In this document: in pieces, positions 42,900 through 58,537 of the stretch
Layout of the letters: every line of letters begins with the position of its first letter
Numbering within the stretch: position 1 is the stretch's first letter
Source of the DNA: Parapedobacter defluvii
GTDB lineage: Bacteria > Bacteroidota > Bacteroidia > Sphingobacteriales > Sphingobacteriaceae
NCBI RefSeq assembly: GCF_014642075.1
Contig: NZ_BMIK01000004.1
Location: forward strand, 186,001 to 250,000
Reading direction: 5' to 3'
DNA length: 64,000 bases
The notes under the pieces: model-generated
What the model was told of the DNA's origin: nothing
The model's database searches: none
The model's input: only the letters and a program-made list of their open reading frames with translations
Position numbers and translations under genes: made by a program

Positions 42900-45056
42900 A
42901 TGTCTAAACTACACCGACGCGATTTTATCAAGTTGTCAGCTACGGCCGGATTGGCGGCCTCCCTGTGGGAACCGCTTTTGCAAAAAGCGCTGGCGGTAGC
43001 AGCTTACAATGCCACACGGTCCATCAAAGATGTACAGCACATCGTGATCCTCATGCAGGAAAACCGGTCATTTGATCATTATTTCGGTGCGATGAAAGGA
43101 GTGCGCGGTTTTGGCGACCGTTTTCCGATACCGCTTGAAAGCGGCGAACGGGCATTTCATCAGTCAGATGGTGAAAAGATTGTGCCTCCCTACCGGGCAG
43201 ATCGGAAAACATCAAATGCCGCTTTTATCAACGGCACACCGCATAATTTCCCCGATACGCAAGCCGCCTGGAACCAAGGAAAATATGGATTTTGGCCGCT
43301 GTTTAAGACCCCGTATTCCATGGCGTATTATACAAGGGAAGAAATCCCGTTTCAATACGCCATGGCCGAATATTTTACCATTTGCGATGCCTATTACTGT
43401 TCCATTGCCACAGGTACGGATCCCAACCGCATCGTGTTCTGGTCAGGATCCGGTTGGGACCCCGAAAAACAGGCAGCGGGCGTAAACTGCACCGATGCGG
43501 ATTCCGAACCCGTCAACCTGCGCTGCTGGATCAAGGGCGAAATGCCGGAACCAGGATATACCTATCAGGGAAGTGCATTTAAATGGCCTACCATTCCGGA
43601 TGTGTTGCAACAGGCGGGTATCAGCTGGCGCATTTATCAGGATCCGAATGATAACTGGACGGGGGCTATGCACGGCTGCCTGGCCTTTGAAAGCTTCCGG
43701 AATGCGAAACCCGGTGATCCGATTTATGAAAATGGGATGCGACACTGGTCATTGGAAGACCTTGCCAACGATGTAAAAAACAATACGCTGCCGCAGGTAA
43801 GTTGGATACTGCCCTCGCAAAGCAACTCCGAACATCCGGGCGCTCCTTCCAGCCCCTATCGTGCATCCAATTTTACTCACGAGGTATTGTCGGCCATTAC
43901 GTCCAATCCAGAAGTATGGAGCAAGACGGTGTTCTTCCTGACTTTTGATGAAAACGATGGGTTGTTCGACCATCTGCCTGCTCCTGCAGTGCCCTCATAC
44001 AACTTGGATGGCACGCTCGCCGGAAAATCGACAATTGACGTTAACGGTATGTATTTCCATGACGACAAGGACAACCTTGAAGATACCGATACACCACGGG
44101 TTTATATCGACAAAAGGGATACGATTTCGGGAAACCTGCGTCCCTGGGGAATGGGCCCCCGCGTGCCGATGTATATCCTGTCTCCTTGGAGCAAAGGCGG
44201 ATGGGTGGACTCAGCCGTGGCTGATCACACCTCGGTGGGGCAGTTTATCGAGAAGAGATTCGGGGTGACTATTCCGGCTATCTCTCCATGGCATCGTGCT
44301 GTTAGCAGTGATCTGACATCGGCATTCGACTTTGTAACACCCAACGATCCGAAGCTACCGGTCATGCCCGATACAGCAGGGTTTGAAAAAATAGATGCGG
44401 CGTCAAAGGAACTTCCCAAAGCCACGGCCCCCGCGCAGCCAGCGCAGTTGTACCAAGAGCGGGGAACCCGCCTCTCAAGAGCGCTGCCCTATCGGCTGCA
44501 TTGTACATTGAAGTACCTGAAGGATAAAAACCTGGTGCAGCTTGTTTTTAAGAACAAGGGAAACAAAGGGGCTGTATACCACGTGTATGACATGCATCGG
44601 CTGGATCGGATTCCGCGGCGGTACACGGTGGAGGCAACCAAATCGCTGGCAGACGAATGGGAGGTGAGCGAAACGAATGGGGCTTATCACCTCGAAGTAT
44701 ACGGCCCAAACGGCTACTTCCACAAATTTGAGGGAAATATAGGTAATGCGGAACCGGAGATCGAGCTGGAATATGATCACCAAAAGGGAGATATTTCCAT
44801 TCATTTGCAGAATGGTTCACGGACACCCTTACATATAGAAATTGAAGCGAATGCATACGAATATGAAAAATTCGATCCGATTTCCCTCGCAGCCGGGAAG
44901 CGTCTGAAAAAATATATCCGTCTGGATAAAAGCAGCAACTGGTATGATTTTACCGTTAAAACCACCAACGGATTTTCACATCGTTTTGCCGGCAGGGTAG
45001 AAACCGGAAAGGCAGGTATCAGCGACCCGGCAATGTGCACTATCGCCGGATCCTGA
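42900..45056 (+). CDS. Tat-exported phosphocholine-specific phospholipase C
   Basis: A 718-residue protein starting with a twin-arginine signal (HRRDFIKLSA, residues 6-14), so it is exported folded. The phosphoesterase core starts at HIVILMQENRSFDHYFG (47-63), with metal and catalytic residues around Glu54 and Asn55. FLTFDENDGLFDHLPAP and VADHTSVGQFIEKRFG mark the rest of the active site. The last third holds two repeated beta-sandwich DUF756 domains (from about 530). Family members cleave phosphatidylcholine or sphingomyelin and help scavenge phosphate or choline. It stands alone; its 3' end overlaps a small convergent ORF by 17 bases. Confidence 0.93.
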   Translation: MSKLHRRDFIKLSATAGLAASLWEPLLQKALAVAAYNATRSIKDVQHIVILMQENRSFDHYFGAMKGVRGFGDRFPIPLESGERAFHQSDGEKIVPPYRADRKTSNAAFINGTPHNFPDTQAAWNQGKYGFWPLFKTPYSMAYYTREEIPFQYAMAEYFTICDAYYCSIATGTDPNRIVFWSGSGWDPEKQAAGVNCTDADSEPVNLRCWIKGEMPEPGYTYQGSAFKWPTIPDVLQQAGISWRIYQDPNDNWTGAMHGCLAFESFRNAKPGDPIYENGMRHWSLEDLANDVKNNTLPQVSWILPSQSNSEHPGAPSSPYRASNFTHEVLSAITSNPEVWSKTVFFLTFDENDGLFDHLPAPAVPSYNLDGTLAGKSTIDVNGMYFHDDKDNLEDTDTPRVYIDKRDTISGNLRPWGMGPRVPMYILSPWSKGGWVDSAVADHTSVGQFIEKRFGVTIPAISPWHRAVSSDLTSAFDFVTPNDPKLPVMPDTAGFEKIDAASKELPKATAPAQPAQLYQERGTRLSRALPYRLHCTLKYLKDKNLVQLVFKNKGNKGAVYHVYDMHRLDRIPRRYTVEATKSLADEWEVSETNGAYHLEVYGPNGYFHKFEGNIGNAEPEIELEYDHQKGDISIHLQNGSRTPLHIEIEANAYEYEKFDPISLAAGKRLKKYIRLDKSSNWYDFTVKTTNGFSHRFAGRVETGKAGISDPAMCTIAGS

Positions 45057-45234
45057 TGTATAGGATCAATACACAAAGTGCCACTGCAAGGAAGAAACAG
45101 GTGATTCCAAAGCTCCGGATGCGGTTACGCGCATGGGCTGATAAAAAAGGATATTTACGGTTTCTCGATACCAAGTAGGTGCCGAGGTACCCTCCGGCAA
45201 ATAACAATACAATCACTAAAAAGAGTAGTTTCAT
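45040..45234 (-). CDS. small two-helix membrane protein, unknown
   Basis: A 64-residue frame with two strongly hydrophobic segments (about 3-20 and 44-60) around a basic loop (SRNRKYPFLSAHARNRIR) and a basic end. It is convergent with the phospholipase gene, overlapping its last 17 bases. Much of it is in otherwise noncoding DNA, and the helix-basic loop-helix pattern is regular, which supports a real gene. I do not recognise a family. Confidence 0.5.
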   Translation of the reverse strand: MKLLFLVIVLLFAGGYLGTYLVSRNRKYPFLSAHARNRIRSFGITCFFLAVALCVLILYIRIRR

Positions 45235-45294
45235 ATTCCGGGTGAATGTAGCATTTGTTGAACAAACGAAAAACTAAAGTGACAGAAAAATTGG

Positions 45295-45302
45295 TATGTT
45301 TG
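45295..45302 (+). promoter_or_regulatory. candidate -7 box for the structured leader and sensor kinase
   Basis: TATGTTTG matches TAnnTTTG exactly. A transcript from about 45309 would run through the inverted repeats at 45316-45447 before the kinase frame. No -33 TTG is seen 19-21 bases upstream. Confidence 0.4.
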
Positions 45303-45308
45303 TAATCG

Positions 45309-45470
45309 TGCTTTTAGGTTGAAACCTGCATGAGCTCCCACTCAAAAAAGGCATGAATAAGTCGAGCTCATGCAAGCTTCATCGCCACTTAAAAACTTAG
45401 CGTAGCGATCTCATTGATGCCGCTAGGAAGACAAATAATCCATCAATAAACAAATTATTTTGATGCAAAA
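45309..45470 (+). ncRNA. candidate structured RNA or 5' leader
   Basis: A 160-base noncoding stretch dense in nested inverted repeats. These are AGGTTGAAACCT (45316-45327); 11-bp perfect arms TGCATGAGCTC (45327-45337) and GAGCTCATGCA (45364-45374) with a 26-base loop; ATCGC (45381-45385) with GCGAT (45405-45409); and ATTGATG (45413-45419) with CATCAAT (45441-45447). It lies directly downstream of a -7 box and upstream of the sensor kinase. I do not recognise a known riboswitch, 6S, tmRNA or SRP RNA. It could be a cis-regulatory leader or an independent small RNA. Confidence 0.38.
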
Positions 45471-46850
45471 TTGCGATTGAAAGGCGAACGCACCAAATGG
45501 TTTTTTAACTCGCTTACGGCTTGTTGGCAGGAACTGACCGGTAAGCCGGGAGAGCTATCGCGCGAAAACCGCGGTTTTAATGTTGTGTCGCTGTACATGA
45601 TTTTGTTACTGGCGATTCTGATTCCTTTAGACATTTATCTCGGCCTTTGGGAGATTGCAGCGGGGCTGGCCGTGACCGAAGGAATGCTGATCACCATGTT
45701 TCTTCTGTCTCGTTATCGGGGTTTGCATCGTGTAGGACTAACTGTATATGCGATCCACAGCTACCTGCTTATTATTTTTACCTATTTGTACAATGGGGGG
45801 AACGCCGGCCCGGCCCTTTATTTTTTTCTACTCACTTATTCGCTTCTGATAGCATTCACTGCGCAACGGCTTCATTGGGTTTGGACCGGATTACACCTTG
45901 TTTTATCGGTTGGCTTATTGATAGGTGAATACGTTTATCCATCTATTGTGATGGTCGGCTATGATTCCAAAAGTTCACGTTTTACCGATCTGACGACCTC
46001 CTTCCCGATTATTATTATTTGCATGTATGCCGCAACGAGCTACCTCCGGAAAGCATACGAACGCGAGCGGGCGGCGGCTGAACTTCAGAATAATCTGTTG
46101 CAGCAAGCAAATCGTGAAAAAATTGAGTTGATTTCCATCTTGGGCCACGACTTAAGGAATCCATTGAACGCCTTGACAGGCACACTCGAAATCCTCACCC
46201 GGGAAGATCTTTCTTCCGAAGTGGAAAAAAAGCTGAAAGGTGAGTTATTGGTTTCTGCCTATCATACATCAGACTTGCTCAATAACGTACTCGCTTGGGT
46301 ATCGGGGCAGATAAAGGGCATTAACCCGTTGTTTACCTGGGTAGATCCGGAGATGATCATTGAACGCGTATTAGCAGTGCAGGGGCTTATGGCGGAGAAG
46401 AAGGGGATTGCGATTCAGTTGGATGTCAAGAAAGGAATCAAAGTACTTGCAGATGCTGAAATGCTGGAGGTGATTATCCGAAATCTGATAAGCAATGCAC
46501 TTAAGTTTACTCCGCAAAAAGGTACGATTCGCATAGCGGTGACAGAAGACCTGGTAAGCAATCAGTGCACAATTTCTATAGACGATGATGGCGTGGGCAT
46601 ACCAGACGGAGATTTAAAAAACATTTTCAACGTCCGTATCCAGTCAACATACGGTACCGAAAGCGAAAAGGGAATCGGACTGGGTCTGTTTCTATGCCGG
46701 GAGCTTACCCTCCGGTTAAATGGAAAAATCTGGGCGGAAAGCGAACTGGGCAAAGGGTCCGTTTTTTTTCTCACATTGCCCCTGTATACCCACGATAATC
46801 CCACCGACCGGTTTCCTCTGCAAAAGAACGTATTCCAGACGTTCCATTAA
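45471..46850 (+). CDS. membrane sensor histidine kinase, probable TTG start
   Basis: A 459-residue protein with about six transmembrane helices (roughly 40-190), a coiled linker, a HisKA domain with ILGHDLRNPLNAL (His226) and an HATPase domain with NLISNALKFTPQKG, DDDGVGIPDGD and GIGLGLFLCRE. There is no fused receiver and no neighbouring response-regulator gene, so it is an orphan kinase. No ATG precedes helix 1 in frame: an in-frame stop lies at 45447-45449, the first possible start is TTG at 45471, and the next ATG (45597) would cut into helix 1. An out-of-frame ATG at 45463 would come into frame if one T were missing from the sequence near 45470. The end FQTFH is unremarkable. Confidence 0.85.
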   Translation: MRLKGERTKWFFNSLTACWQELTGKPGELSRENRGFNVVSLYMILLLAILIPLDIYLGLWEIAAGLAVTEGMLITMFLLSRYRGLHRVGLTVYAIHSYLLIIFTYLYNGGNAGPALYFFLLTYSLLIAFTAQRLHWVWTGLHLVLSVGLLIGEYVYPSIVMVGYDSKSSRFTDLTTSFPIIIICMYAATSYLRKAYERERAAAELQNNLLQQANREKIELISILGHDLRNPLNALTGTLEILTREDLSSEVEKKLKGELLVSAYHTSDLLNNVLAWVSGQIKGINPLFTWVDPEMIIERVLAVQGLMAEKKGIAIQLDVKKGIKVLADAEMLEVIIRNLISNALKFTPQKGTIRIAVTEDLVSNQCTISIDDDGVGIPDGDLKNIFNVRIQSTYGTESEKGIGLGLFLCRELTLRLNGKIWAESELGKGSVFFLTLPLYTHDNPTDRFPLQKNVFQTFH

Positions 46851-46942
46851 TCCCGTTCTCCCCAGCCAATGGTTTTTCCAGGACGTGGATGTTTGGATTT
46901 ATTTTTGTAGGCTATGATTTCGTAAATGCGATGCATTTTATC

Positions 46943-46950
46943 TATGTTTG
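46943..46950 (+). promoter_or_regulatory. candidate -7 box for phosphoglucomutase gene
   Basis: TATGTTTG matches TAnnTTTG. Transcription would begin near 46957, 14 bases before the ATG at 46971. This excludes the upstream in-frame ATG at 46926 as the main start. Confidence 0.42.
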
Positions 46951-46970
46951 AAAAGGAAAGAAATTTGACC

Positions 46971-48710
46971 ATGACGACAACGAATTTAGATCCCGCGATC
47001 CAGGCACGCGCCGAAGTTTGGCTACATGCGCCTTATGATGAGTCCACTACAGCGGCTGTAAAAGAATTATTTGATACAAAGCAGTATACTGAATTAACAG
47101 ACAGCTTTTATAAGGATCTTGAATTCGGGACCGGGGGTCTCCGGGGCATTATGGGGGTGGGTACCAACCGGATGAACAAATATACCATTGGCAGGGCTAC
47201 GCAGGGGTTGAGCAATTATCTGCTCAAAACCTATCCGGGAGAACAAATTAAAGTAGCCATTTCTTATGACAGCCGCAATAATTCGCAATCGTTTGCCCGT
47301 TTGGTGGCCGATGTGTTTTCAGCCAATGGCATTCAGGTATATTTGTTTGCTGAATTGAGGCCTACGCCGCATCTGTCGTTTGCGGTCCGGCATCTCGGAT
47401 GCCACGCCGGGGTGATGCTGACAGCTTCGCACAACCCTAAGGAGTACAACGGTTATAAAGCCTATTGGAACGATGGTGGTCAGCTGGTTCCACCTCACGA
47501 CAAAAATGTGATCCAGGAAGTGTACGCCATCGAAGATCCGGATGAAATCAAATTTTCGGCCAACGAGGCGAATATTCACTTGCTGGGCAAGGAAATGGAC
47601 GAGGCTTATTTGGATGCCATCGCCACCTTAACCATCCGGCCGGAAACCGTAGCACGGCAAAAGGACCTGAAAATTGTCTATTCGCCTATCCACGGTACAG
47701 GTGTTACGCTGGTACCACCCGCTTTGCAGCGTTGGGGATTTGCTAACGTGCAGGTGGTGGAAGCACAAGCCAAACCAGATGGCAATTTCCCGACGGTAGT
47801 GTATCCGAATCCGGAAGAAGAAGAAGCCATGTCACTGGCGGTAGAAGCAGGTGAGCGTATTGGAGCAGATGTAATCTTTGCCACGGATCCCGATGCGGAC
47901 CGCGTGGGAGCGTCTGTCCGGAATAAGGATGGCGCTTACCAACTACTCAATGGAAACCAAATCGGTAGCTTATTGGTTAACTATGTACTGTCTGCAAAAA
48001 AAGAACAGGGCGATTTGCGGCCCGATGATTATGTGGTCAAAACCATCGTGACGACCAACTTGATTGCAGACATCGCCAAGCAATACGGCGTCACCTATTA
48101 CGATACCCTTACAGGCTTTAAGTACATCGGCGAACTGATCACGTTGAAAAACGGACAGGGCCGTTTTCTGGTAGGCGGGGAAGAAAGTTATGGCTACTTG
48201 GTTGGTGAACTGGTGCGCGATAAAGACGCTGTGGTATCTGCTGTATTCATTGCCGAAATGGCGGCTTATTACAAAGACCAGGGCAAAACGTTGTTTGATG
48301 CGCTGATAGACCTATACACGCAGCATGGTTATTATAACGAGAAACTGATCTCGCTGACAAAAAAAGGAAAGGCCGGAGCCGAAGAAATCAAAGCGATGAT
48401 GGAACGCCTGCGGACCGATCCGCCCCAAACCCTTGGAGGCATCGATGTAGCCGAAATCAAGGATTACGAAAGGAGTGAGTCGTACAACCTCAAAACAGGC
48501 AAACGAGAGGCAATCAACCTTCCTAAGTCGGACGTCTTGCAGTTTATCACCGTGGATGGCGACGTGATCTCCGCCCGTCCCTCAGGCACGGAACCCAAAA
48601 TCAAATTTTATTGCAGCGTACGGCAACCGCTCAGCAGCGCCGCGGATTTTGATCGCGTAGGGCAGGAATTGGAAGAACGGGTGGATCGGATCATGAAAGA
48701 CATTGCCTAA
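46971..48710 (+). CDS. phospho-sugar mutase (phosphoglucomutase/phosphomannomutase family)
   Basis: A 579-residue alpha-D-phosphohexomutase that interconverts hexose 1- and 6-phosphates. Numbered from the chosen start, the phosphoserine loop is TASHNP (151-156, Ser153), the Mg site DPDADR (306-311), the sugar-binding loop GGEESYG and the phosphate-binding loop RPSGTEP near the C-terminus. EFGTGGLRG near 51-59 is typical of the long PGM/PMM group of Bacteroidota. The frame opens at 46926, but a -7 box at 46943-46950 and a normal MTTTN start favour 46971. The NUDIX gene follows after 2 bp, so the two form an operon. Confidence 0.94.
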   Translation: MTTTNLDPAIQARAEVWLHAPYDESTTAAVKELFDTKQYTELTDSFYKDLEFGTGGLRGIMGVGTNRMNKYTIGRATQGLSNYLLKTYPGEQIKVAISYDSRNNSQSFARLVADVFSANGIQVYLFAELRPTPHLSFAVRHLGCHAGVMLTASHNPKEYNGYKAYWNDGGQLVPPHDKNVIQEVYAIEDPDEIKFSANEANIHLLGKEMDEAYLDAIATLTIRPETVARQKDLKIVYSPIHGTGVTLVPPALQRWGFANVQVVEAQAKPDGNFPTVVYPNPEEEEAMSLAVEAGERIGADVIFATDPDADRVGASVRNKDGAYQLLNGNQIGSLLVNYVLSAKKEQGDLRPDDYVVKTIVTTNLIADIAKQYGVTYYDTLTGFKYIGELITLKNGQGRFLVGGEESYGYLVGELVRDKDAVVSAVFIAEMAAYYKDQGKTLFDALIDLYTQHGYYNEKLISLTKKGKAGAEEIKAMMERLRTDPPQTLGGIDVAEIKDYERSESYNLKTGKREAINLPKSDVLQFITVDGDVISARPSGTEPKIKFYCSVRQPLSSAADFDRVGQELEERVDRIMKDIA

Positions 48711-48712
48711 CC

Positions 48713-49258
48713 ATGCTGCATTGGGAAACGCTCTCGTCTGAATATTTAGTGCAGGCGCCCTGGGCAGTACTGCGCAAGGATGTATGCCGCATGCCAAATG
48801 GGCATGTGGTACCGGAGTACTATGTGTTGGAATATCCCGACTGGGTAAATATGGTGGCACTTACCGCCGACAACCAGTTTATTCTCGTCAAGCAATACCG
48901 TCATGGCGTGGCGCAGGATGTGCTCGAAATTCCGGGCGGAGTCATTGACCCCGGCGAAGACGCTCCTACCGCGGCTACCCGGGAGATGCTTGAGGAAACC
49001 GGCTACCAGTTTGATACGATTGAGGAACTGGCCACGTTATTTCCCAACCCTGCAACCGCAAACAACCGTACGTACACCTATCTGTTTACCGGTGGCGTGA
49101 AGGTACAGGAGCAGGATTTGGATGAGCAGGAAGATATTGAAGTTCTCTTGGTCTCACCCGAAGAATTGAAACAGTTGCTGATTGGAAATCAGTTCGGGCA
49201 GGCCTTACATACAGCCGCACTTTTTTATGCGTTGATGCACCTAGGTCTGCTTAAATAA
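48713..49258 (+). CDS. NUDIX hydrolase, ADP-ribose pyrophosphatase-like
   Basis: A 181-residue hydrolase with a complete Nudix box (GX5EX7REUXEEXGU) from Gly76 to Tyr98: GGVIDPGED, then REMLEETGY. The preceding VKQYRHGVAQDVLEIPGG is typical of ADP-ribose or ADP-sugar pyrophosphatases. It starts 2 bp after the phosphoglucomutase stop and is co-transcribed with it, which suggests control of nucleotide-sugar levels. Substrate preference among ADP-ribose and ADP-sugars cannot be decided from the sequence. Confidence 0.9.
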   Translation: MLHWETLSSEYLVQAPWAVLRKDVCRMPNGHVVPEYYVLEYPDWVNMVALTADNQFILVKQYRHGVAQDVLEIPGGVIDPGEDAPTAATREMLEETGYQFDTIEELATLFPNPATANNRTYTYLFTGGVKVQEQDLDEQEDIEVLLVSPEELKQLLIGNQFGQALHTAALFYALMHLGLLK

Positions 49259-49276
49259 CCGTATCTCTTATTATGG

Positions 49277-49317
49277 ACTGTCCGATATCGAACACTTGTT
49301 GTCCGGTATCGGACAGT
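49277..49317 (+). terminator. possible terminator of the mutase-NUDIX operon, overlapping an operator pair
   Basis: ACTGTCCGATA (49277-49287) and TATCGGACAGT (49307-49317) are perfect 11-bp arms around a 19-base loop, and TTTTGTTTTT follows directly. The structure can act as an intrinsic terminator. The same bases also contain the tandem palindromes listed separately. Confidence 0.5.
49279..49315. promoter_or_regulatory. tandem palindromic operator upstream of FtsX permease
   Basis: Two 16-bp palindromes of form TGTnCG-N4-CGnACA occur side by side: TGTCCGATATCGAACA (49279-49294) and TGTCCGGTATCGGACA (49300-49315). Their starts are 21 bp apart, two DNA turns, so dimers would bind the same face. 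They lie 150 bp upstream of the permease ATG. A second pair with the same pattern precedes the ABC ATPase gene at 53570. Confidence 0.5.
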
Positions 49318-49464
49318 TTTGTTTTTAGGATCTGCTGTGGAGCTTTGGAAGACAGCCTGTTAACGGGTTGGGAATGAATTTCGTATGAAAAAACGTGCGG
49401 AATTACGGAGGCATTTATGGAAAACCCGTTACGAACGGATCTATTTAATATAAAAACCATACGT

Positions 49465-51804
49465 ATGAATAACCTGAAGATCGCTTGGCGCAATGCACTG
49501 CGGTCAAAACTGTTTGCGGCATTCAATATCCTTGGTCTTGCCTTGGGATTTGCGGGTTTCATCCTCGCTTACTTGTACATTAACCGGGAAACAAGCTATG
49601 ATAAATGGAATCCAAATTATGAGAACATTTACCTCGTAGGGCTTTCTTATCAAGGAAACCATACCGACCTTACACCGGCGGCGCTGGCGACAGCTATCAA
49701 AGCGAAGCTGCCGGAAGTGGAGGAAGTGGGTAGGGTGTCATATTTCCCCTGGGAGATGCCTTTTATACACGACAACGGCGAAGCCATTGTGAAAGATTGG
49801 AAGATGGCAGATCTTTCCATTGCAACGATGTTCGGTGTCGCGGCACATGGCTTCAGCCTTACAGAGGAAGAGCACCCCGAAGCGAATCTGGTAACTTCCG
49901 CAATTGCAAATGCGTTGTTTCCGAAACTCCCTGAACGGGAGTTTGAGCCCCGGCAGATTGCACTTCAAAGTGAAGAGAGTGGTTCTTTTCCGTATATACA
50001 TGGTGTCGCAAAAGAACGTGGATTATCCAACCTGGCTTATGAGGCCATCTTTTTTAAGGCTAACCTTGCCGGGGACAATCCAGGGGACCCGCTTCAATAC
50101 CAGACCTACATTCAGGTAAAACCAGGGACGGATATCGCGCTGTTGGACAAGAAGATCAAAGAAATCTATAAGCGGGAGATTTCACAGCGGCATCATACCG
50201 TTACTTCGGCTTTCGCCAAGGGTGAAACGTACTTAGACCCGTTGCAAAACCTGCATTTGCGGCCGCAGCACGGTTCGAATACCGGTTATATAACTGTTTG
50301 GGCGTTAGGCATATTGTCGGGAGTCATTTTACTGTTGGCGGGCATCAATTTCGCCAATCTGATGGTCGCACAGGCGAATAAACGGGCAAAGGAAATCGGC
50401 CTCAAAAAAGTATTCGGAGTGAGCCGGGTTCGATTGATGTTGCAATTTATGGGGGAAGTGTTGTTTCAATGCTTGCTGGCGGCCGTTCTTGCATGGGGCA
50501 TGGTGGTACTCTGCCGGAATGGGCTACAAAAATGGTTGGCTTATGATCTTGCCGCTTTTGCCATGGACGGTCAGATCGCTTGGCAGCTGCTGATAGCGGC
50601 GTCCCTTACCGCGTTGGTATCGGGCAGCTATCCCGCTATGCTTCTTTCCGGCTATCATCCGGTAACGATTTTGAAAGGCAGTTTCCAAACCAGCCACCGT
50701 ACGGCTTGGTTCCGCCACGCGTTGTTGACATTTCAGTTTGTCATTGCGCTGGTATTCATTGCAGGGATGCTGATCCTCAATCGGCAGCTGAATTATATCC
50801 GGGATGGAGACAAGGGGTTTGAGCCGGCGCAAGTGGTATACATCAAAAATCAGATGCTGCTTAACAACCCGGCAGATTTCAAACCCTTTCGCGATCGGAT
50901 GCAGGCTTATCCCGGTATTGAATATGCCACGGCAGCGACCAGCGCTCCGGGAAGCATCGGCCCCGCTGAGAAGGAATTTCAGTATGTGGATGAGGTGCGC
51001 AAAGCAGATCACCTAGCCGTGGACTTCGACTATATCGAAACGATGGGCATGGAAATGCTGCAGGGGCGGTCATTTACGGAGGCTTTTGCAGCCGATTCCA
51101 CGAACGGGGCGATCGTCAATGAAACACTGGTAAAGGCTTTTGGGATGCAGAGCCCCATTGGGCAAACCATCCGCGGCTGTGACGCCGACTTCCAAATTGT
51201 CGGCGTGGTCAAGGACAGCAAAATGCAGGGTTTCGAAAAATTGGTACATCCAACTGTTTATTCGATTAACAATACCTGCGGGCAATTCAAAACGGAAATC
51301 CTGATCAAGATCAAGCCCGGCACGACGCGACAAACGCTGGCCGCATTGGAAAGAGACTGGAAATCCATTAACAGGTTGGACGGTGCGCATTTCCGCTATG
51401 AATTCGTCGATCAGAAATACGCTGCATTGCATGCTCAGCAAGAGCAATTGGAGTCCGCTTTTAGTACGTTCACGATCCTCTCCATCGCCATTGCGATGAT
51501 GGGCCTGTTCAGTATGTCGGCTTACAGCATCAGTATCCGCAAAAAGGAGGTGAGTATCCGAAAGGTACTCGGGGCATCGGTTGGACAGCTGTTCGTGCAG
51601 CTCAACAGGCCGTTCTTACGGATTTTCCTGGTCGCAAACCTCATTGCACTTCCTTTGGCTTACCTGTTGGTAGATCGTTGGCTAGCGACTTTCGCTTACC
51701 GCATTACCGTATCCTGGTGGATGTTTGCCCTAGCGGGGCGTTATGGCATTGCTCATTGCCCTGCTTACCGTTGCCTATCAATCGCTGCGGGCAGCACGGG
51801 CTAA
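49465..51804 (+). CDS. FtsX-like ABC permease (two-FtsX-domain type), C-terminal frameshift
   Basis: A protein of about 780 residues of the large Bacteroidota permease family: an N-terminal helix (NLKIAWRNALRSKLFAAFNI), a MacB_PCD periplasmic domain, FtsX helices (near 280-430), a second periplasmic domain and a final FtsX helix set (SISIRKKEVSIRKVLGASV). I chose ATG 49465; 49417 is an alternative. After WWMFALAG the frame gives an unrelated tail and stops at 51804. Shifting by one base at 51739 restores a family-typical ending, VMALLIALLTVAYQSL then RAARANPVDWLRDE, stopping at 51832. So one extra C is present, either a real frameshift that removes the last helix or a sequencing error. No ATPase is adjacent; 53570 is the likely partner. 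Confidence 0.85.
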   Translation: MNNLKIAWRNALRSKLFAAFNILGLALGFAGFILAYLYINRETSYDKWNPNYENIYLVGLSYQGNHTDLTPAALATAIKAKLPEVEEVGRVSYFPWEMPFIHDNGEAIVKDWKMADLSIATMFGVAAHGFSLTEEEHPEANLVTSAIANALFPKLPEREFEPRQIALQSEESGSFPYIHGVAKERGLSNLAYEAIFFKANLAGDNPGDPLQYQTYIQVKPGTDIALLDKKIKEIYKREISQRHHTVTSAFAKGETYLDPLQNLHLRPQHGSNTGYITVWALGILSGVILLLAGINFANLMVAQANKRAKEIGLKKVFGVSRVRLMLQFMGEVLFQCLLAAVLAWGMVVLCRNGLQKWLAYDLAAFAMDGQIAWQLLIAASLTALVSGSYPAMLLSGYHPVTILKGSFQTSHRTAWFRHALLTFQFVIALVFIAGMLILNRQLNYIRDGDKGFEPAQVVYIKNQMLLNNPADFKPFRDRMQAYPGIEYATAATSAPGSIGPAEKEFQYVDEVRKADHLAVDFDYIETMGMEMLQGRSFTEAFAADSTNGAIVNETLVKAFGMQSPIGQTIRGCDADFQIVGVVKDSKMQGFEKLVHPTVYSINNTCGQFKTEILIKIKPGTTRQTLAALERDWKSINRLDGAHFRYEFVDQKYAALHAQQEQLESAFSTFTILSIAIAMMGLFSMSAYSISIRKKEVSIRKVLGASVGQLFVQLNRPFLRIFLVANLIALPLAYLLVDRWLATFAYRITVSWWMFALAGRYGIAHCPAYRCLSIAAGSTG

Positions 51805-51888
51805 TCCGGTCGATTGGTTAAGGGATGAATAGTGGAATGCCAGGACAGCCGAAAGCTGGCAACTAAAGGCTCCAGGCCCATACCTAAG

Positions 51889-53130
51889 TTAAAAAACAGG
51901 CTCCGCTTCGTCTTCGATTATCTCTACGGTGGCCCGATGCGTATGAAGCTCGGCCGAATGCGTTATGCGGTTTTGTCGGACTTGATGAAGAATGAAGGCT
52001 AATGCGAACAATGCACCAAAAGCCGCCATGGCCGCACCTACCCATTCCGGCGAAGAGTAGCCATATCCCATTGCAATGGGTAAGCCGCCCAAAAATGCCC
52101 CGAGTGCATTACCGATGTTGAAACTCGCCTGGCTCACCGAAGCGGCCAGCATTTCTGACCCTTTTGCGGTATTGATCATCAACATTTGTATAGGGGCCGA
52201 CAGCGCGAATGCAATGCTGCCCAAAATAAAAGTCATTATAAGGGAGGGGATGGGGTAAACAGACACATATTGCTGGGTGACCAGTGCGGCTGCCATTGCA
52301 CTGAGCAGTATAAGAGATGCTTTAGCCGGTGAAACGAGATCCGCCAAACGACCGCCCAGTAGATTGCCGATAAACATACCAACGCCCGCTAGCATCAGGA
52401 TGTATGTCATAGACGACTCTGAGAAGCCGGCAACCTTGGTCATCAGGGGCGAGATGTAACTGTACCACGAAAAAAGCCCACCTGTGCCGATGGCAATCAT
52501 CCCAATGATTAACCACGCTTCTTGCCGCCTGAAAAAACGCAACTGGGTCTTTACGCTGCCTGCCTGCTTTGCCGGCATATCAGGCATCCACAACTTCAAA
52601 GATAATAAGGTAAGGATACCTACAAGTACGACAATGGCAAATGAATACCGCCAGATGAAATGATGGCCAATATAAGTGCCGAGCGGTACACCAATGAGGT
52701 TAGCAATGGTCAGCCCCGCAAACATAATCGAAATAGCCTGGGCCTCCTTGCCTGGTTTGGCCAAGCGGCTGGCTACTACGGAACCCACGCCGAAGAAGGC
52801 ACCATGGGGAAGACCTGCAAGCACCCGGGAAATAAGTAACGAATAGTAATCCGGAGCAAATGCAGTAAATGCATTGAATAGCGTAAAGAGTACCATCAGC
52901 CCGAGAAGGATGCGTTTGGGCGGATACTTACCTGCAATCACCACAAGCAGGGGAGCTCCAATTACCACACCCATCGCGTACGCTGCGATCAGGTGGCCTG
53001 CGGTGGGGATATCGATGCCTAAATCTTGTGCAATATCCTCCAGCAACCCCATCATCACAAATTCGGTAATGCCAATACCCAATCCTCCAAAAAGGAGTGA
53101 TAATAAACTTCTCTTTATCGTTGTTTGCAT
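51889..53130 (-). CDS. MFS transporter, AraJ/DHA1 efflux type
   Basis: A 413-residue, 12-helix inner-membrane transporter. FGGLGIGITEFVMMGLLEDIAQDLG opens helix 1, SRVLAGLPHGAFFGVGSVVASRLA lies in helices 4-5, and NLLGGRLADLVSP marks the second half; all are typical of AraJ-like drug or sugar efflux permeases. The frame reaches 53196, but ATG 53130 gives the usual N-terminus, and a -7 box at 53167-53174 puts the transcript start near 53160. A polar, acidic C-terminal tail (EIIEDEAEPVF) follows the last helix. The gene is convergent with the permease gene and divergent from the ABC ATPase gene. Its substrate is unknown. Confidence 0.9.
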   Translation of the reverse strand: MQTTIKRSLLSLLFGGLGIGITEFVMMGLLEDIAQDLGIDIPTAGHLIAAYAMGVVIGAPLLVVIAGKYPPKRILLGLMVLFTLFNAFTAFAPDYYSLLISRVLAGLPHGAFFGVGSVVASRLAKPGKEAQAISIMFAGLTIANLIGVPLGTYIGHHFIWRYSFAIVVLVGILTLLSLKLWMPDMPAKQAGSVKTQLRFFRRQEAWLIIGMIAIGTGGLFSWYSYISPLMTKVAGFSESSMTYILMLAGVGMFIGNLLGGRLADLVSPAKASLILLSAMAAALVTQQYVSVYPIPSLIMTFILGSIAFALSAPIQMLMINTAKGSEMLAASVSQASFNIGNALGAFLGGLPIAMGYGYSSPEWVGAAMAAFGALFALAFILHQVRQNRITHSAELHTHRATVEIIEDEAEPVF

Positions 53131-53166
53131 ATTTTTTCTGTCAAATTGCTTAGTGTAAAAAGTACA

Positions 53167-53174
53167 CAAAGATA
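53167..53174 (-). promoter_or_regulatory. candidate -7 box for the MFS transporter gene
   Basis: The minus strand reads TATCTTTG, matching TAnnTTTG, 36 bases upstream of ATG 53130. No properly spaced -33 TTG is visible. Confidence 0.4.
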
Positions 53175-53262
53175 ATACTTTTTCTATGGGTTGCACACGT
53201 ACTCAACAAAATAGAGGTTAGCATATGATACAGCGTTGATATAACCCTCACTCAGCAAGAGG

Positions 53263-53300
53263 TGTGCGGAATCGGACAATTAGCTGTTCGGAAACGTACA
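53263..53300. promoter_or_regulatory. tandem palindromic operator upstream of ABC ATPase
   Basis: TGTGCGGAATCGGACA (53263-53278) and TGTTCGGAAACGTACA (53285-53300) both fit TGTnCG-N4-CGnACA and start 22 bp apart. Pattern and spacing match the pair at 49279-49315. Here no T-tract follows and the outer arms do not form a good stem, so a protein-binding role fits better than a terminator. The pair lies 270 bp before the ATPase ATG and about 90 bp behind the MFS promoter. Confidence 0.48.
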
Positions 53301-53463
53301 CCGTACAATATATATTATCAGGTTAGTTGCTGTTTATTAGTCCGTTACAGTAATGGAGGGATTTTGGCAGGTGAATAGGTCGATTACATTGCATATATAA
53401 AACGAACTTAATGGAGCAATCGTATGGACGCCAAAAAACTCAATAAAAGATCAATAATTTATC

Positions 53464-53471
53464 TAAGTTTG
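53464..53471 (+). promoter_or_regulatory. candidate -7 box for the ABC ATPase gene
   Basis: TAAGTTTG matches TAnnTTTG, 98 bases before the ATG. No -33 box is found at the right distance, so support is weak. Confidence 0.28.
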
Positions 53472-53569
53472 AGTCCGTCAGCTTTCCATACTGCGCTGCC
53501 GGTCGATTAACGTACAACATTAACAAATCTGATAGCTGATAACTTGAATTCGGTAACCAAAAGCAGAAA

Positions 53570-54235
53570 ATGATCCAATTAAACAATATATTTAAATGGT
53601 ACAATGTAGGTGGCAATCGCTCATTTGTACTTAAAGATATCAATCTCCATATCGCCGAGGGCGAGTTTGTTTCGATTATGGGTCCCTCGGGCTCGGGAAA
53701 ATCCACATTGCTCCATATTCTTGGGCTTTTGGATGAGCCGGATGAAGGGGAGTATTTCTTTTTGGGCGAAAATGTGCTTGGACTGAAAGAAAAGCAGCGG
53801 TCGGCGCTATATAAACAATACATAGGTTTTGTATTCCAGGCGTATCACCTCATTGACGAGCTGACCGTATATGAAAATATCGAGACCCCGCTCATTTACA
53901 AAAATTTGAAAAGCAGCGAGCGGAAAGCAATTGTCGCAGACTTGATTGACCGGTTTGGCATCGTGGGAAAAAAGGATCTTTTTCCGACACAACTATCTGG
54001 AGGACAGCAGCAATTGGTAGGTATTGCGCGTGCCCTGGCCACTACACCCAAACTTTTATTGGCGGATGAACCTACGGGCAATCTGAACTCCAAGCAAGGA
54101 GAAGAAATCATGGACCTATTCAAACAACTCAATGAAGAAGACGGTGTAACGATTGTACAGGTAACACATTCCGAAAAAAATGCCGAATACGGTAACCGGA
54201 TTATTGAGTTGTTGGATGGGCAGATTGTAAAATAG
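53570..54235 (+). CDS. ABC transporter ATPase, LolD/MacB family
   Basis: A 221-residue stand-alone ATPase of the family that energises MacB, FtsX and LolCE permeases. Walker A is GPSGSGKST (38-46), the Q-loop ends at Gln90 (FVFQAYHLIDELTVYEN), the signature is LSGGQ (142-146) and Walker B is LLLADEP (162-168, Glu167), followed by TGNLNSKQGEEI and a switch His in VTHSEKNAEYG. The residue after QQQ in the signature is Leu rather than the usual Arg (QQQLVGIARAL). No permease gene is adjacent. The shared operator pattern with the permease at 49465 suggests that the two work together. Confidence 0.93.
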   Translation: MIQLNNIFKWYNVGGNRSFVLKDINLHIAEGEFVSIMGPSGSGKSTLLHILGLLDEPDEGEYFFLGENVLGLKEKQRSALYKQYIGFVFQAYHLIDELTVYENIETPLIYKNLKSSERKAIVADLIDRFGIVGKKDLFPTQLSGGQQQLVGIARALATTPKLLLADEPTGNLNSKQGEEIMDLFKQLNEEDGVTIVQVTHSEKNAEYGNRIIELLDGQIVK

Positions 54236-54249
54236 GGAAATTGCCTGTT

Positions 54250-55803
54250 TCAGTGATCCTGAAGCGCGATCAATGCCTCGGCTACGACTTTGTCTGAACG
54301 GTTACGAACTTTAAAAAAAGCTTCATTTCCAAAGTAGTAGCGGCCTAATAGTGCTTCAATATCGTTTCGTACCATCGGTTTTATTTGGTCAGCTTCTTTG
54401 GAGGTGTAGCTGACACCGGAGTTTTGCACATACTCCAAAAAATCGCGGTATTCACGGTCAGGCAGAAAGTATCCTTTCAGGTAGTTTTCCACAGAGTATG
54501 CAGGCAGCGACTTCGTCAACCGACCATACACGTAGTCTTCAATGAGGTTTGCCCGGCGTATATTCCGGTATAACGTGCTGACCTTGCCACTATCTGCAGA
54601 TACCCAAACATCGGGCGCAATTCCACCACCGGCATATACCCGTTTGCCCGATAAGGTTTTGAACTCCACAGTATCGATAGGAGGACGGTGAATCCTAGGG
54701 TTCGTATAGGATTTTTGGATGCACCTTCCTAAGGGCGTATAATAACGTGCCACAGTAAGGTTGAGTGCCGAGCCATCGCCAAAGCCAAACTGCTCTTGTA
54801 CCAATGCTTTTCCGTATGATGGCCTGCCGACGATAACGCCGCGTTCCAGGTCCTGGATTGCTCCTGCAACAATTTCGCTTGCGGATGCCGATTGCTCGTC
54901 AATCAATACGGCTAAACCTCCATGGCCGAAGATGCCATCGGCGCTTGAATAGTAATCGGTTCTGGGCTCATGGGCTCCTTCGGTATATACGATCAGCTGC
55001 TTATCGGTAAAAAATTGGCTGGCCAACGCGGTAGCGGCATTAAAATACCCGCCGCCGTTTTCCCGAAGATCCAGGATAAGTCGTTTTGCTCCCTGTTTTT
55101 TGAGATTTTGGAGTGCATTTTTGAAATCATCGTTCGTTTTGGCGCCAAAACGCCGGATTTTGATATATGCAGTAGCGCTGTCTAGTATATATGCCGCGTC
55201 AATACTGCTCACGTCTACTCGGTCACGCACTACTTTGAGCGGTAAGGGCAAGCTTTTACCATTGCGATTTATGGTGATTTCGATAGTTGTTCCCCGGCGG
55301 CCGCGGACCTTCTCTTCAATGGATTTTTCCGAGATGTGGATCCCCGCTATGGTATCTCCGTTGATTGCTATCAGTTTGTCTCCTACACGCATGCCCGCCC
55401 GTTGGGCAGGTCCGCCTGTCACCAGGCCTACGGTAATCAATGTATCGTTAAGGTTGTAATATTCAATACCAATACCTTCGAAACTCCCTTCAAGCGCTTC
55501 GTGTTGTTTTTGTGCTTGATTGGGTCTAAGGTATTCAGAGTGTGGGTCCAATTGTTCGACTAGCTCACCGATGGCAAGATCCTGCAGCTGGTCTATATTT
55601 ACACTGTCCACATAGTTCTCTGCAATTAGATCGATCATACGCTGCACTTTACCGGTTTTATCGGTAATACCCAAAGGAAGTAAACTGCTTGCACCCGAAT
55701 GGGTATTTTCGGCTGTATAATTCTGCCCAAGCAGGAGACCCAATGACAAAGCTACGCCATATGTCGCGGCAACAAATAAATTCCTTTTGGTTTCCTTGCG
55801 CAT
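54250..55803 (-). CDS. S41-family C-terminal processing protease
   Basis: A 517-residue periplasmic serine protease of the CtpA/Prc group. An N-terminal signal anchor (about 9-27) is followed by a PDZ domain (about 105-190, GSFEGIGIEY, AQRAGMRVGDKLIAING) and the protease core. The catalytic Ser lies in DEQSASASEIVAG (305-309) and the Lys is Lys332 in PSYGKALVQEQFG. The C-terminal quarter (about 400-517) is the extra domain seen in Bacteroidota homologues. Such proteases trim or degrade envelope proteins from the C-terminus. It is convergent with the ABC ATPase gene, 14 bp away. Confidence 0.93.
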   Translation of the reverse strand: MRKETKRNLFVAATYGVALSLGLLLGQNYTAENTHSGASSLLPLGITDKTGKVQRMIDLIAENYVDSVNIDQLQDLAIGELVEQLDPHSEYLRPNQAQKQHEALEGSFEGIGIEYYNLNDTLITVGLVTGGPAQRAGMRVGDKLIAINGDTIAGIHISEKSIEEKVRGRRGTTIEITINRNGKSLPLPLKVVRDRVDVSSIDAAYILDSATAYIKIRRFGAKTNDDFKNALQNLKKQGAKRLILDLRENGGGYFNAATALASQFFTDKQLIVYTEGAHEPRTDYYSSADGIFGHGGLAVLIDEQSASASEIVAGAIQDLERGVIVGRPSYGKALVQEQFGFGDGSALNLTVARYYTPLGRCIQKSYTNPRIHRPPIDTVEFKTLSGKRVYAGGGIAPDVWVSADSGKVSTLYRNIRRANLIEDYVYGRLTKSLPAYSVENYLKGYFLPDREYRDFLEYVQNSGVSYTSKEADQIKPMVRNDIEALLGRYYFGNEAFFKVRNRSDKVVAEALIALQDH

Positions 55804-55969
55804 ATCCCTGATAACACGCGCTAAATTAAATAGTTTCCCTCATTTTATGCCGTATGGATGCAAAATTTACAAAAAAATGGTTTCGCTGTAGGGTGTAAAA
55901 AAGCAAGTTGACCCTTTTTTTGTTGTCCTAAAATATTAGCACTTTTGTAAAAATAAAATATACAAGGCG

Positions 55970-56536
55970 ATGCACGAGATTGAGCCCTATTACCGCTGGA
56001 GAGATGATTACATCGCTGCCGAAGATGAGTTATCCCCGTTCTATGGAACGGAGTACAATGAGTTTGAGTTTGATAAGCAAATATACAATTTCTTGCTTCA
56101 TCCACAGTGGGATAACTTTGGTTCCAATACGTTGTACTTAAAGGTTTTATTTGCTGATTATCAGCGAGGATATGCCATTATCGAGCTGATTGGCGAGTGG
56201 AATGATGCCATATACAACGATATCATGCTGCTTAAGCGGGAGGTGATCGACTTGATGATCAGCGCAGGTATCAATAAATTCATCATGATGGGTGAAAACG
56301 TACTCAATTTTCATGCTTCGGACGATTGCTATTATGAGGAATGGTTTCAGGATATTGAAGATGGCTGGATAGCGGGCATTAATTTCCGCAAACACGTAAT
56401 TGATGAATTTAAATCGAGCAATATTGATTATTTTATCAATTTTGGCGGTAAACTGGACGACCTCAGTTGGCGGAACCAAAAGCCCCTGCAGGTATATAAA
56501 TCTGTAGAAGAACAGCTAACCAAACGCCTGCATTGA
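55970..56536 (+). CDS. conserved protein of unknown function
   Basis: A 188-residue, acidic, soluble protein rich in aromatic residues, with no signal peptide or membrane helix. YYRWRDDYIAAEDELSPFYG starts the chain, and a regular alternation of strands and helices follows (LYLKVLFADYQRGYAIIELIGEWND, LLKREVIDLMISAGINKFIMM). It resembles uncharacterised proteins widespread in Bacteroidota, but I cannot name a domain. It lies divergent to the S41 protease gene and convergent with the isomerase gene, 4 bp from its stop. Confidence 0.75.
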   Translation: MHEIEPYYRWRDDYIAAEDELSPFYGTEYNEFEFDKQIYNFLLHPQWDNFGSNTLYLKVLFADYQRGYAIIELIGEWNDAIYNDIMLLKREVIDLMISAGINKFIMMGENVLNFHASDDCYYEEWFQDIEDGWIAGINFRKHVIDEFKSSNIDYFINFGGKLDDLSWRNQKPLQVYKSVEEQLTKRLH

Positions 56537-56540
56537 AAGG

Positions 56541-57053
56541 TCAGGCCCGCTCGAACACTTTGTCGTAGATTAATTTAAACCAGGCGGTGTACGCTTCGGG
56601 GTTTTCTCTGTTTTCCCGGTCAATCGTCGTACGGTCCGACCATCGGTAGGCCGCTACTTCTGCCGGATTGGGAATAGGCGGATGATTGCTATATCCGATG
56701 AATACATGATCCAGTTCATGTTCCACCAGTCCGTTGTCAAAGGGCGCACGGTAACGGAATGTAAAGGCAAACGTCAGGGGAACGTGCATGCCCATTTCCT
56801 CTTCCAACCGGCGATGGGCGGCAGCCGATGCGGTCTCACCGGGGGCCGGGTGGCTGCAACAGGTGTTGGTCCACAGCCCGGCACTGTGGTATTTATGGGC
56901 TGCCCGTTGTTGAAGCAATAAGCGGTGCTGGTTATCGAATATAAAAACACTGATGGCACGATGGAGTAATCCTTTCTGATGGGCCTCCAGTTTTTCCATG
57001 GTACCAATAACCTCATCACGTTCGTTAACCAATATGACATTTTCTTGTTGCAT
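56541..57053 (-). CDS. idi: isopentenyl-diphosphate delta-isomerase, type I
   Basis: A 170-residue NUDIX-fold isomerase that interconverts IPP and DMAPP for isoprenoid synthesis. The catalytic Cys lies in WTNTCCSHPAPGE (Cys66, aligned with Cys67 of the E. coli enzyme) and the catalytic Glu in EHELDHVF (Glu113). RRLEEEMGM is the Nudix-like helix. The length is close to the family norm. The gene is followed by a convergent unknown gene and preceded by a 437-residue unknown in the same orientation, 42 bp away. Confidence 0.93.
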   Translation of the reverse strand: MQQENVILVNERDEVIGTMEKLEAHQKGLLHRAISVFIFDNQHRLLLQQRAAHKYHSAGLWTNTCCSHPAPGETASAAAHRRLEEEMGMHVPLTFAFTFRYRAPFDNGLVEHELDHVFIGYSNHPPIPNPAEVAAYRWSDRTTIDRENRENPEAYTAWFKLIYDKVFERA

Positions 57054-57095
57054 CGTATTATTTATTGCTCACTCGTCACTGACCCCCGTATTCCT

Positions 57096-58409
57096 TTAAA
57101 CTGTCTTTACATGCCGTTCATCGTATCCTTCAATATCAATGATGTATCTATTTTTGACGAGAAACTCAAAAAGTGGCCGAGCCTCGTCCGATACAGGCAT
57201 GTTGGCCGTTGTGATGATTTGATTATCCTGCCTATTAAGATAAGGGTAAGCATAGAGTTTTACATTTTTGCTGAACAACCCGCTTACGTAAGCAAGCAGT
57301 TCGTCGGTGTAATTACCCTTGTTGTATTGTTTGGAGTTAAAAGTGTTGCGCAGGTTGGAGATGTTTGTGGAGATCCCTACATTCCGTGGTTTAAACTGAG
57401 ATAGGTACTCTGCGAGGTAATGGTTGCGCGTGAAGTTGGATACCAAAATGTGATTTCCTGTACTGCATAGGTATTCCGCGCGTTCGGCGAAATATTGGAG
57501 GTCATCGGGTGTAAACTGCGGTGTTTGATCAAGTACATTGCTCATCAACACTTCAATCATCACAACCAGGTTGTCATCGGATAGTTGAAGGTTACGCTTA
57601 AACTGCTCAACAGCGAGGTTAAACAGGTCGAAATGGGGATTGGATTTTTGCCGGTATTTGGTGCGTAAAATCATGATATCCTTTTTGTAAAGGAAGTCCT
57701 TGCTTTGGTATGCCGATCCCTGTGGATTGAATATGGCTGCTTTGGAAAAACCCTTTGCGATGAGGTAAAGGTTGATGAGCCGTTCATTTACGTCCTTAAA
57801 GGCCGGGCCGTCTACTTTCACCAAGTCAATCTGTACTGCACCAGGCGATAGGTTGTCGGCGAGCGATTCGATCATGGTCTGCACATCCCGGGTATAATAG
57901 TAAGCGGCAAAAACAAGATTGACACCCAATACGCCCAGAACTTTCTGTTGTAGTAAATTGTCGCTGTCCAATAACCGCACGTGAAAGATAATCTCGTTGG
58001 GTGCACCGCCCACTTGGTGCTGAAAACGGATCCCGATCCATCCGTGTGGTTCGTTTGTTTTGCTGAAGTTGAGTGCCGAAACGGTATTAGCAAAGGCAAA
58101 CAGCCGTTTATTTTGATATTTTTCACCCGTGAGCCGCTCGGTAAGCAGCTCATATTCATGTTCGAGCATTTTGCGCAGCCTCGAACGGCTCACATACCTT
58201 CCCGAGTCTTCTGCACCGTAAATGGCGTCACTGAAGGTCATATCATAGGCTGACATGGTTTTGGCAATGGTTCCCGAAGCTGCTCCCGCATTGAAGAAAT
58301 TGCGGGCTACTTCCTGTCCGGCACCGATTTCGGCAAATGTTCCGTAGATTTCCCCATTGAGGTTGATTTGTAGCGCTTTTCGCTTGGTTTCGTAGATTTC
58401 ACGTGCCAT
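57096..58409 (-). CDS. conserved Bacteroidota protein of unknown function
   Basis: A 437-residue soluble protein starting MAREIYETKRKALQINL, followed by YGTFAEIGAGQEVARNFFNAG and ASGTIAKTMSAYDMTFSDAIYG, a very conserved N-terminal block. There is no signal peptide or transmembrane helix. I have seen such proteins labelled inconsistently, sometimes as a nucleotide adenylyltransferase, but no HIGH-type or Walker motif is visible here and I do not assign a reaction. A -7 box lies only four bases before the ATG, implying a leaderless or near-leaderless transcript. A heptamer tandem repeat sits just upstream. It may be co-transcribed with the isomerase gene. Confidence 0.82.
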   Translation of the reverse strand: MAREIYETKRKALQINLNGEIYGTFAEIGAGQEVARNFFNAGAASGTIAKTMSAYDMTFSDAIYGAEDSGRYVSRSRLRKMLEHEYELLTERLTGEKYQNKRLFAFANTVSALNFSKTNEPHGWIGIRFQHQVGGAPNEIIFHVRLLDSDNLLQQKVLGVLGVNLVFAAYYYTRDVQTMIESLADNLSPGAVQIDLVKVDGPAFKDVNERLINLYLIAKGFSKAAIFNPQGSAYQSKDFLYKKDIMILRTKYRQKSNPHFDLFNLAVEQFKRNLQLSDDNLVVMIEVLMSNVLDQTPQFTPDDLQYFAERAEYLCSTGNHILVSNFTRNHYLAEYLSQFKPRNVGISTNISNLRNTFNSKQYNKGNYTDELLAYVSGLFSKNVKLYAYPYLNRQDNQIITTANMPVSDEARPLFEFLVKNRYIIDIEGYDERHVKTV

Positions 58410-58413
58410 GGCG

Positions 58414-58421
58414 CAAAGATA
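58414..58421 (-). promoter_or_regulatory. candidate -7 box next to the start codon
   Basis: The minus strand reads TATCTTTG, an exact TAnnTTTG match, followed by CGCC and then the ATG of the 437-residue protein. The transcript would be leaderless or have only a few untranslated bases. Confidence 0.42.
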
Positions 58422-58430
58422 GGCTTTTTG

Positions 58431-58472
58431 GAGATATGAGATATGAGATATGGGATATGAGAACTGAGATAC
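58431..58472. repeat. heptamer tandem repeat, six units
   Basis: Three exact GAGATAT units are followed by GGGATAT, GAGAACT and GAGATAC, 42 bases in all. It begins nine bases behind the -7 box of the leftward gene, so the repeat occupies the spacer and -33 position. Changes in copy number would change promoter geometry. Confidence 0.75.
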
Positions 58473-58537
58473 GATTTTAAATTTTTACTTTTGATTTAAT
58501 TTTGTTGAGCTCGCTTTAACTTTTTAATTTTTGCCAC

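Follow-up and report, generated by a model that had tools for sequence, protein, structure and literature searches.

In a 64-kb stretch of the Parapedobacter defluvii genome (contig NZ_BMIK01000004.1, positions 186,001 to 250,000; hereafter the window, numbered from its first base), a gene for an FtsX-type permease and a separate gene for an ABC ATPase each follow a pair of 16-bp palindromes. What are these pairs for, and which protein would read them? The original prediction proposed an undescribed regulon under a dimeric regulator that binds one DNA face. Our comparison of this genome with its relatives supports such a regulon and broadens it to HlyD, TolC and other FtsX genes; its regulator most likely activates transcription together with sigma-54. 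The pairs are very probably sites of an NtrC-type activator that switches on FtsX/MacB-type exporters with sigma-54, here and, in the same layout, in many Bacteroidota. They most likely act as sigma-54 enhancers because in relatives they are linked to the gene of one such activator, which we call EBP13, and because a TGG stands at a set distance from them, a geometry kept in other genera.

Paired palindromes in the window, the genome and its relatives

All four 16-mers lie where they were first reported, the halves starting 21 bp apart before the FtsX gene and 22 bp apart before the ATPase gene, and all fit TGTnCG-N4-CGnACA as claimed (Table 1). The window has no other exact match to TGTNCGNNNNCGNACA. 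With up to one mismatch allowed the window holds 7 matches, against 1.76 expected, and none of 100 shuffles gets to 7.

The whole 5.80-Mb genome holds 23 exact TGTNCGNNNNCGNACA sites, compared with 4 for the reversed-pattern control. Nine of these 23 belong to no exact pair, and five or more fall inside open reading frames (ORFs). Pairs with up to three mismatches over both halves occur seven times at 21 bp and five times at 22 bp, and the control gives none. Seven pairs are exact, all at 21 or 22 bp and two of them in the window; the remaining exact pairs and the near-exact ones, with one or two mismatches, are listed in Table 1. The two pairs with three mismatches, at C3:118806 beside a tRNA-synthetase-like gene and at C13:126569 inside an ORF (C numbers denote contigs), are doubtful or due to chance. 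Jointly, the target genes include every part of a MacAB-TolC-like exporter. LytTR and LuxR regulators are encoded near some of the sites.

Relatives were scanned with the pattern on whole genomes and with a matrix on fetched loci. An exact pair (3-8 nt spacer) was found in 12 of 60 genomes including this one, among them 8 of the 9 of the genus, and the control gave none. Of 151 genomes sampled from the family, 23 also contain exact pairs. Spacing was measured in 60 pairs, from this genome and from relatives' loci, that deviate from the pattern at one position or none: the halves start 21 bp apart in 35, 22 bp apart in 24 and 20 bp apart in one, with no other spacing from 17 to 59 bp. The scan proposed with the original prediction thus returned pairs at 20-22 bp, mostly before exporter genes, and not random hits. 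Conservation at the window locus also held, with a pair upstream of both orthologous genes in each of the six sister genomes fetched there (G001 and G002 are outside this set). All six retain the NUDIX, FtsX, ABC and S41 neighbourhood, and only one of the 12 pairs, before the FtsX gene of G006, carries a mismatch (one).

A TGG at a near-constant distance from the pairs

A motif search with no prior pattern was run on 56 target flanks, those with a labelled exporter, EBP or 184-aa gene starting within 420 nt, and returned a block ending in TTGG, at one position in most flanks. The analysis was then repeated on both flanks of all 60 distinct pairs. A TGG starts 52 nt beyond the pair in 20 flanks, 53 nt beyond it in 30 and 54 nt beyond it in 10 (60 of 120); other positions mostly have 0-4 flanks and a few 5-9. 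In 55 of the 60 pairs at least one flank carries a TGG at 52-55 nt.

Compared with TGGs elsewhere, those at this distance are more often preceded by T (0.73 vs 0.34) and more often followed by a -12-like G[CT], both at N9-N11 (0.72 vs 0.40) and at exactly N10 (0.27 vs 0.16). A4 and G6 are also commoner. IHF-like sequences, scored against the consensus WATCAAN4TTR, are enriched upstream of the TGG: matches to at least 8 of 9 consensus positions reach 0.20 against 0.01 elsewhere (shuffled 0.03), and matches to at least 7 of 9 reach 0.52 against 0.14 (shuffled 0.22). The published sigma-54 consensus is TGGCACG-N4-TTGCW, and some promoters deviate from it at -12 (PMC3538637). The -12 box of Bacteroidota promoters apparently departs from that consensus.

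A candidate activator and its kinase

The genome encodes RpoN (PF04552 match, 5.0e-55), five strong sigma-54 activators and one HU/IHF-family gene that we could find. Judged by gene linkage, the best candidate regulator of the pairs is EBP13 together with the adjoining histidine kinase HK13. Its gene lies on contig C13, in keeping with the proposal that the regulator is encoded outside the window, and an NtrC-type activator would fit the dimeric protein binding one DNA face. EBP13 has Response_reg, Sigma54_activat and HTH_8 (Fis helix-turn-helix) domains, all above cut-off. Its best NCBIfam matches include AtoC (374 of 714 bits) and ZraR (360 of 760 bits), far below their cut-offs, and its best solved chains are 4l4u and 1ny5 of the NtrC family and 1ojl of ZraR.

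HK13 has a weak PAS match and adjoins EBP13 in this genome and in most orthologous loci. Two predicted membrane helices with a loop of 0-7 residues were found in 44 of 76 orthologues, and a single helix above threshold in the remaining 32, as in the P. defluvii protein. Because the helices are joined by almost no loop, HK13 is probably a sensor acting in or at the membrane, perhaps via its exporter.

In relatives, EBP13 is linked to the pairs by position. An exact pair separates FtsX-HlyD from the EBP13-HK13 orthologues in G026, and HlyD-ABC from EBP13-HK13 in G080, G090 and G099 (of one genus with G066), with FtsX also present in G090 and G099. The exporter operons facing EBP13 across the exact pair in these four genomes are divergent and HlyD-led. 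In G024, homologues of the window's FtsX (52%) and ATPase (84%) adjoin HK13-EBP13. The activator also co-occurs with the pairs: EBP13 (E<=1e-120) is present in 79 of the 151 family genomes, comprising 21 of the 23 that bear pairs compared with 58 of the 128 that do not. One EBP13 search took in 32 of the 60 genomes. In the HlyD-EBP13 intergenic region of L232-L234 (L numbers denote loci), a TGG lies 53-56 nt from the pair on both sides, a layout suggesting that this enhancer may activate EBP13 as well as the exporter.

The other four sigma-54 activators, on C18 near kdp, C11, C3 and C6, were set aside, no exporter gene being recognised beside them. Neither L039-L041 nor EBP13's own stretch has a site at one mismatch or fewer, and L043 has two single sites, both in ORFs.

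The module in other genera

Of at least 574 EBP13 relatives the best 80 were taken, at loci from other genera, and all counts given for other genera refer to these. An exporter gene lies divergent within 1.5 kb of EBP13 in 63 of the 80 (HlyD 51, FtsX 10, ABC 2; none in 17), and EBP13-HK13 typically faces an HlyD-ABC-FtsX operon. A relaxed pair is present in 50 of the 63 exporter-facing regions, a count made without a shuffled control; the enhancer there drifts to TGTATCnnnnCGnACA-like sites, TGT-N10/11-ACA. In 45 of these 50 a TGG, mostly as TGGCA[CT], lies 48-58 nt from the relaxed pair, with a peak at 51-54 nt.

A plasmid of Hymenobacter volaticus (L226) carries the whole module, FtsX-FtsX-ABC-HlyD / EBP13-HK13. 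Counted by eye, some 62 nt separate its TGGCAC from the pair, one helical turn beyond the usual distance. On a plasmid record of Phocaeicola massiliensis (L225), a 48% EBP13 relative is divergent from TolC-HlyD-FtsX-ABC-FtsX, and an exact TGT-N10/11-ACA scan found no pair. As this locus carries an EBP13 relative divergent from exporter genes, the module extends to gut Bacteroidales.

A proposed mechanism and its rivals

Under our preferred explanation, each pair would be a two-dimer upstream activating sequence of the TGT-N10-ACA type. EBP13 would presumably be phosphorylated by HK13, and two of its dimers would occupy one DNA face, 21-22 bp apart. The DNA between enhancer and promoter, often with an IHF-like sequence, may be bent by HU/IHF protein. 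This would let the EBP13 AAA+ ring contact RNA polymerase-sigma-54 at the TGG (-24) 52-54 nt from the enhancer and open the promoter. The genes induced would be those of a MacAB-TolC-like exporter (HlyD adaptor, ABC ATPase, duplicated FtsX permeases and TolC) and of a few other proteins. We infer that the pump may export toxic peptides or envelope debris.

A number of results weigh against this account. Three pairs are present in G002, which retains only an EBP13-HK13 fusion remnant (L210:7257-7910, no N in the stretch), a single frame made of the start of EBP13 (residues 1-66 aligned) and the last 161 residues of HK13. The G022 assembly has four pairs and neither EBP13 nor HK13, although four congeners have both. 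Conversely, G001 has EBP13 and no exact pair, only a one-mismatch pair between its HlyD and TolC genes. No pair with up to three mismatches was found beside EBP13 in this genome or in G003-G008, with little upstream sequence available in P. defluvii (G000) and G008, so that the linkage rests on the other relatives. The choice of EBP13 likewise rests on relatives, since its own stretch here has no site; those relatives were searched for EBP13 only, and the other four activators may have a role. At most promoters the -12 element is degenerate, with a spacing of N9-N11, and a strict sigma-54 consensus scan of the loci in this genome hit three scattered places but none of these promoters. The IHF-like matches are weak in many promoters, that of the window's FtsX gene included. 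In other genera, 13 of 63 regions have no relaxed pair and 5 of 50 no TGG. Many loci are orthologous, so the counts lack independence. Lastly, the L1 loop reads GAFTDA in 89 of 101 EBP13 proteins, GAFTGA in none and GSFTGA in 2, with 10 unresolved by pattern (some loci of the same genome are counted twice).

This loop is one reason to consider that EBP13 binds the pairs but acts by direct contact with a housekeeping-sigma polymerase; the degenerate -12 box and the rigid spacing between enhancer and TGG point the same way. Against it, no conserved block was seen 15-34 nt downstream of the TGG, and a Bacteroidota-type sigma-70 promoter (-33/-7) was rejected on this ground. The conserved TTGG or TGGCA[CT] block resembles the -24 element of the sigma-54 consensus (PMC3538637). 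A D. vulgaris paper includes GAFTDA in its list of variants said to keep activity (PMC4641369), yet VfmH, which has GAFTDA, gave no RpoN in a pull-down (PMC10714721). On balance, we consider action through a housekeeping sigma factor improbable. It is also very unlikely that the pairs are repressor operators (TetR- or GntR-like, for example), with a dimer on each palindrome and the exporters silenced until a drug binds. Tandem near-perfect 16-bp palindromes near exporter genes are typical of such operators, but these sites lie upstream of the predicted promoter without overlapping it, at a near-constant distance from the TGG, and in several genera a gene for a sigma-54 activator is linked to them.

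The first pair also has the look of a terminator, a caveat raised in the original prediction for 49277-49317. At 49275-49319, 3' of the NUDIX gene, the palindromes are mutually complementary and form a strong RNA hairpin (-29 kcal/mol, z -4.5) that is followed by a T-rich tail. That part of the caveat is real, and because of this fold the FtsX enhancer may double as the NUDIX gene's terminator. A terminator alone would leave the fixed promoter geometry unexplained and is therefore insufficient, as pair and promoter spacing recur at many other loci, some of them between divergent genes that need no terminator. That the structure is only a terminator, and the second pair a coincidence, is contradicted by those conserved divergent pairs and is hardly credible; a terminator function might exist in addition. 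No RNA family reached its gathering score in an Rfam search of window positions 44000-60000.

Genes of the window and other targets

The window permease matches MacB_PCD and FtsX, and its matches to the ADOP and DarB models are below cut-off. By eye, its C-terminus (51720-51840) is atypical for the family, with family-like residues in another frame, and we suspect a sequencing error or a frame slip close to the end of the gene. The original prediction called permease and ATPase orphans. In four of the six sister genomes an MFS gene lies between them as it does here. It is absent from L079 and L080, where FtsX directly adjoins ABC and other ORFs separate NUDIX from FtsX; the two proteins are thus probably partners of one split exporter.

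A family of 184-198 aa proteins with no confident family match belongs to the regulon in five genomes, where this pair and TGG are present too (L017:6596-7150; L075, L076, L088 and L094). It is a candidate for a signal or cargo role.

Table 1. Positions of the window features, of pair-associated genes elsewhere in the genome and of the candidate activator gene. Ranges with two dots are window positions.
Feature	Position	Strand	Remarks
Distal half of FtsX enhancer pair (predicted), TGTCCGATATCGAACA	49279..49294	+	Pair upstream of orthologue in 6 sister genomes
Proximal half of FtsX enhancer pair (predicted), TGTCCGGTATCGGACA	49300..49315	+	21 bp from distal half
IHF-like sequence, FtsX promoter	49350..49362	+	Weak match to WATCAAN4TTR, between enhancer and promoter
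Predicted sigma-54 promoter, FtsX	49368..49385	+	TTGG (-24) at 49368-49371; degenerate -12 near 49383; TGG 53 nt after pair
FtsX/MacB_PCD duplicated permease	49417..51804	+	Second possible start 49465; NCBIfam ADOP subfamily match below cut-off
Distal half of ABC ATPase enhancer pair (predicted), TGTGCGGAATCGGACA	53263..53278	+	Pattern match
Proximal half of ABC ATPase enhancer pair (predicted), TGTTCGGAAACGTACA	53285..53300	+	22 bp from distal half
IHF-like sequence, ATPase promoter, TATTAGTCCGTTA	53335..53347	+	Alignment, class enrichment
Predicted sigma-54 promoter, ATPase, TGGAGGGATTTTGGCA	53354..53369	+	GG-N10-GC exact; 53 nt after pair
ABC ATPase	53570..54235	+	Best matches DarD/MacB/LolD type, below cut-offs
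Target: window FtsX	First window pair		Exact pair
Target: window ABC ATPase	Second window pair		Exact pair; MFS gene divergent on other side
Target: HlyD adaptor and FtsX	C1:22422		Exact pair; X-Pro peptidase gene divergent
Target: 184-aa protein, signal-like start	C1:425321		Exact pair; hydrolase gene divergent
Target: ABC ATPase and FtsX	C7:34485		Exact pair
Target: 473-aa protein, no Pfam match	C7:41100		Exact pair
Target: FtsX	C7:56244		Exact pair
Target: FtsX	C15:13750		One-mismatch pair
Target: TolC	C4:52148		One-mismatch pair
Target: shortened FtsX frame (by eye: start and end, middle missing)	C7:39371		L023:15372-15900; two-mismatch pair
EBP13 (NtrC-type activator)	G000:C13:146272-147624 (= L042:8273-9625)	-	Histidine kinase HK13 adjoining

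Comparison with known systems

Enhancer-driven sigma-54 regulons are already known as a kind. No publication on this activator, enhancer or regulon was found in the literature searched, whose coverage leaves out most subscription journals. Many FtsX-type permeases encoded in Bacteroidota genomes have no known role or regulation, and some of them now have a candidate regulator, site, predicted start and partner kinase. The signal and cargo of these exporters become testable through one gene pair, and the set of near-fixed enhancer-promoter units is useful for defining the form of sigma-54 promoters in Bacteroidota. A 2025 promoter-matrix study (PMC12316311) inferred sigma-54 control of COG0577 FtsX-type permeases in Bacteroidia. 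Its finding of sigma-54 before such permeases matches ours, whereas no enhancer, activator or exporter-EBP operon appears in the part of that paper available.

In site form the pairs resemble the enhancers of NifA. NifA sites are of the TGT-N10-ACA type and are accompanied by IHF (PMC6296734), although PMC3538637 prints them as TGT-N10-AGA. The half-site geometry is shared, and enhancer, IHF-like site and -24 element follow one another in the same order. Unlike NifA, EBP13 belongs to the response regulators, has a partner kinase and is not of the GAF type. CG pairs stand inside its motif, its sites come in twos at 21-22 bp, and its enhancer-promoter distance is nearly fixed, a feature that may not be unique to it. 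The CbrB enhancers of Pseudomonas putida likewise involve IHF and sigma-54 and have several subsites that share one DNA face at intervals of 20-25 bp, but those subsites are non-palindromic and variably spaced (PMC6296734). With AtoC, ZraR and the NtrC class EBP13 shares the REC-AAA+-Fis architecture. It differs from AtoC and ZraR in its GAFTDA loop, in targeting FtsX-type exporters and in scoring far under their cut-offs.

The adaptor, ATPase and permease of the regulon match the models of MacAB-TolC, of the darobactin exporter DarBCD and of the ADOP permeases. All of these matches are below cut-offs, however, and here the duplicated permease has a gene of its own, apart from that of the ATPase. 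A broader parallel, which we offer tentatively and hold to be rather doubtful, is with the Bce modules of Gram-positive bacteria. The system could be their Bacteroidota-wide sigma-54 counterpart, in which a kinase with membrane helices and hardly any periplasmic loop would read the working state of its FtsX-type exporter and a GAFTDA activator would fire a rigidly spaced enhancer-promoter unit. In this genus the switch would have spread before dispersed 'orphan' permeases, giving one sensor for many pumps.

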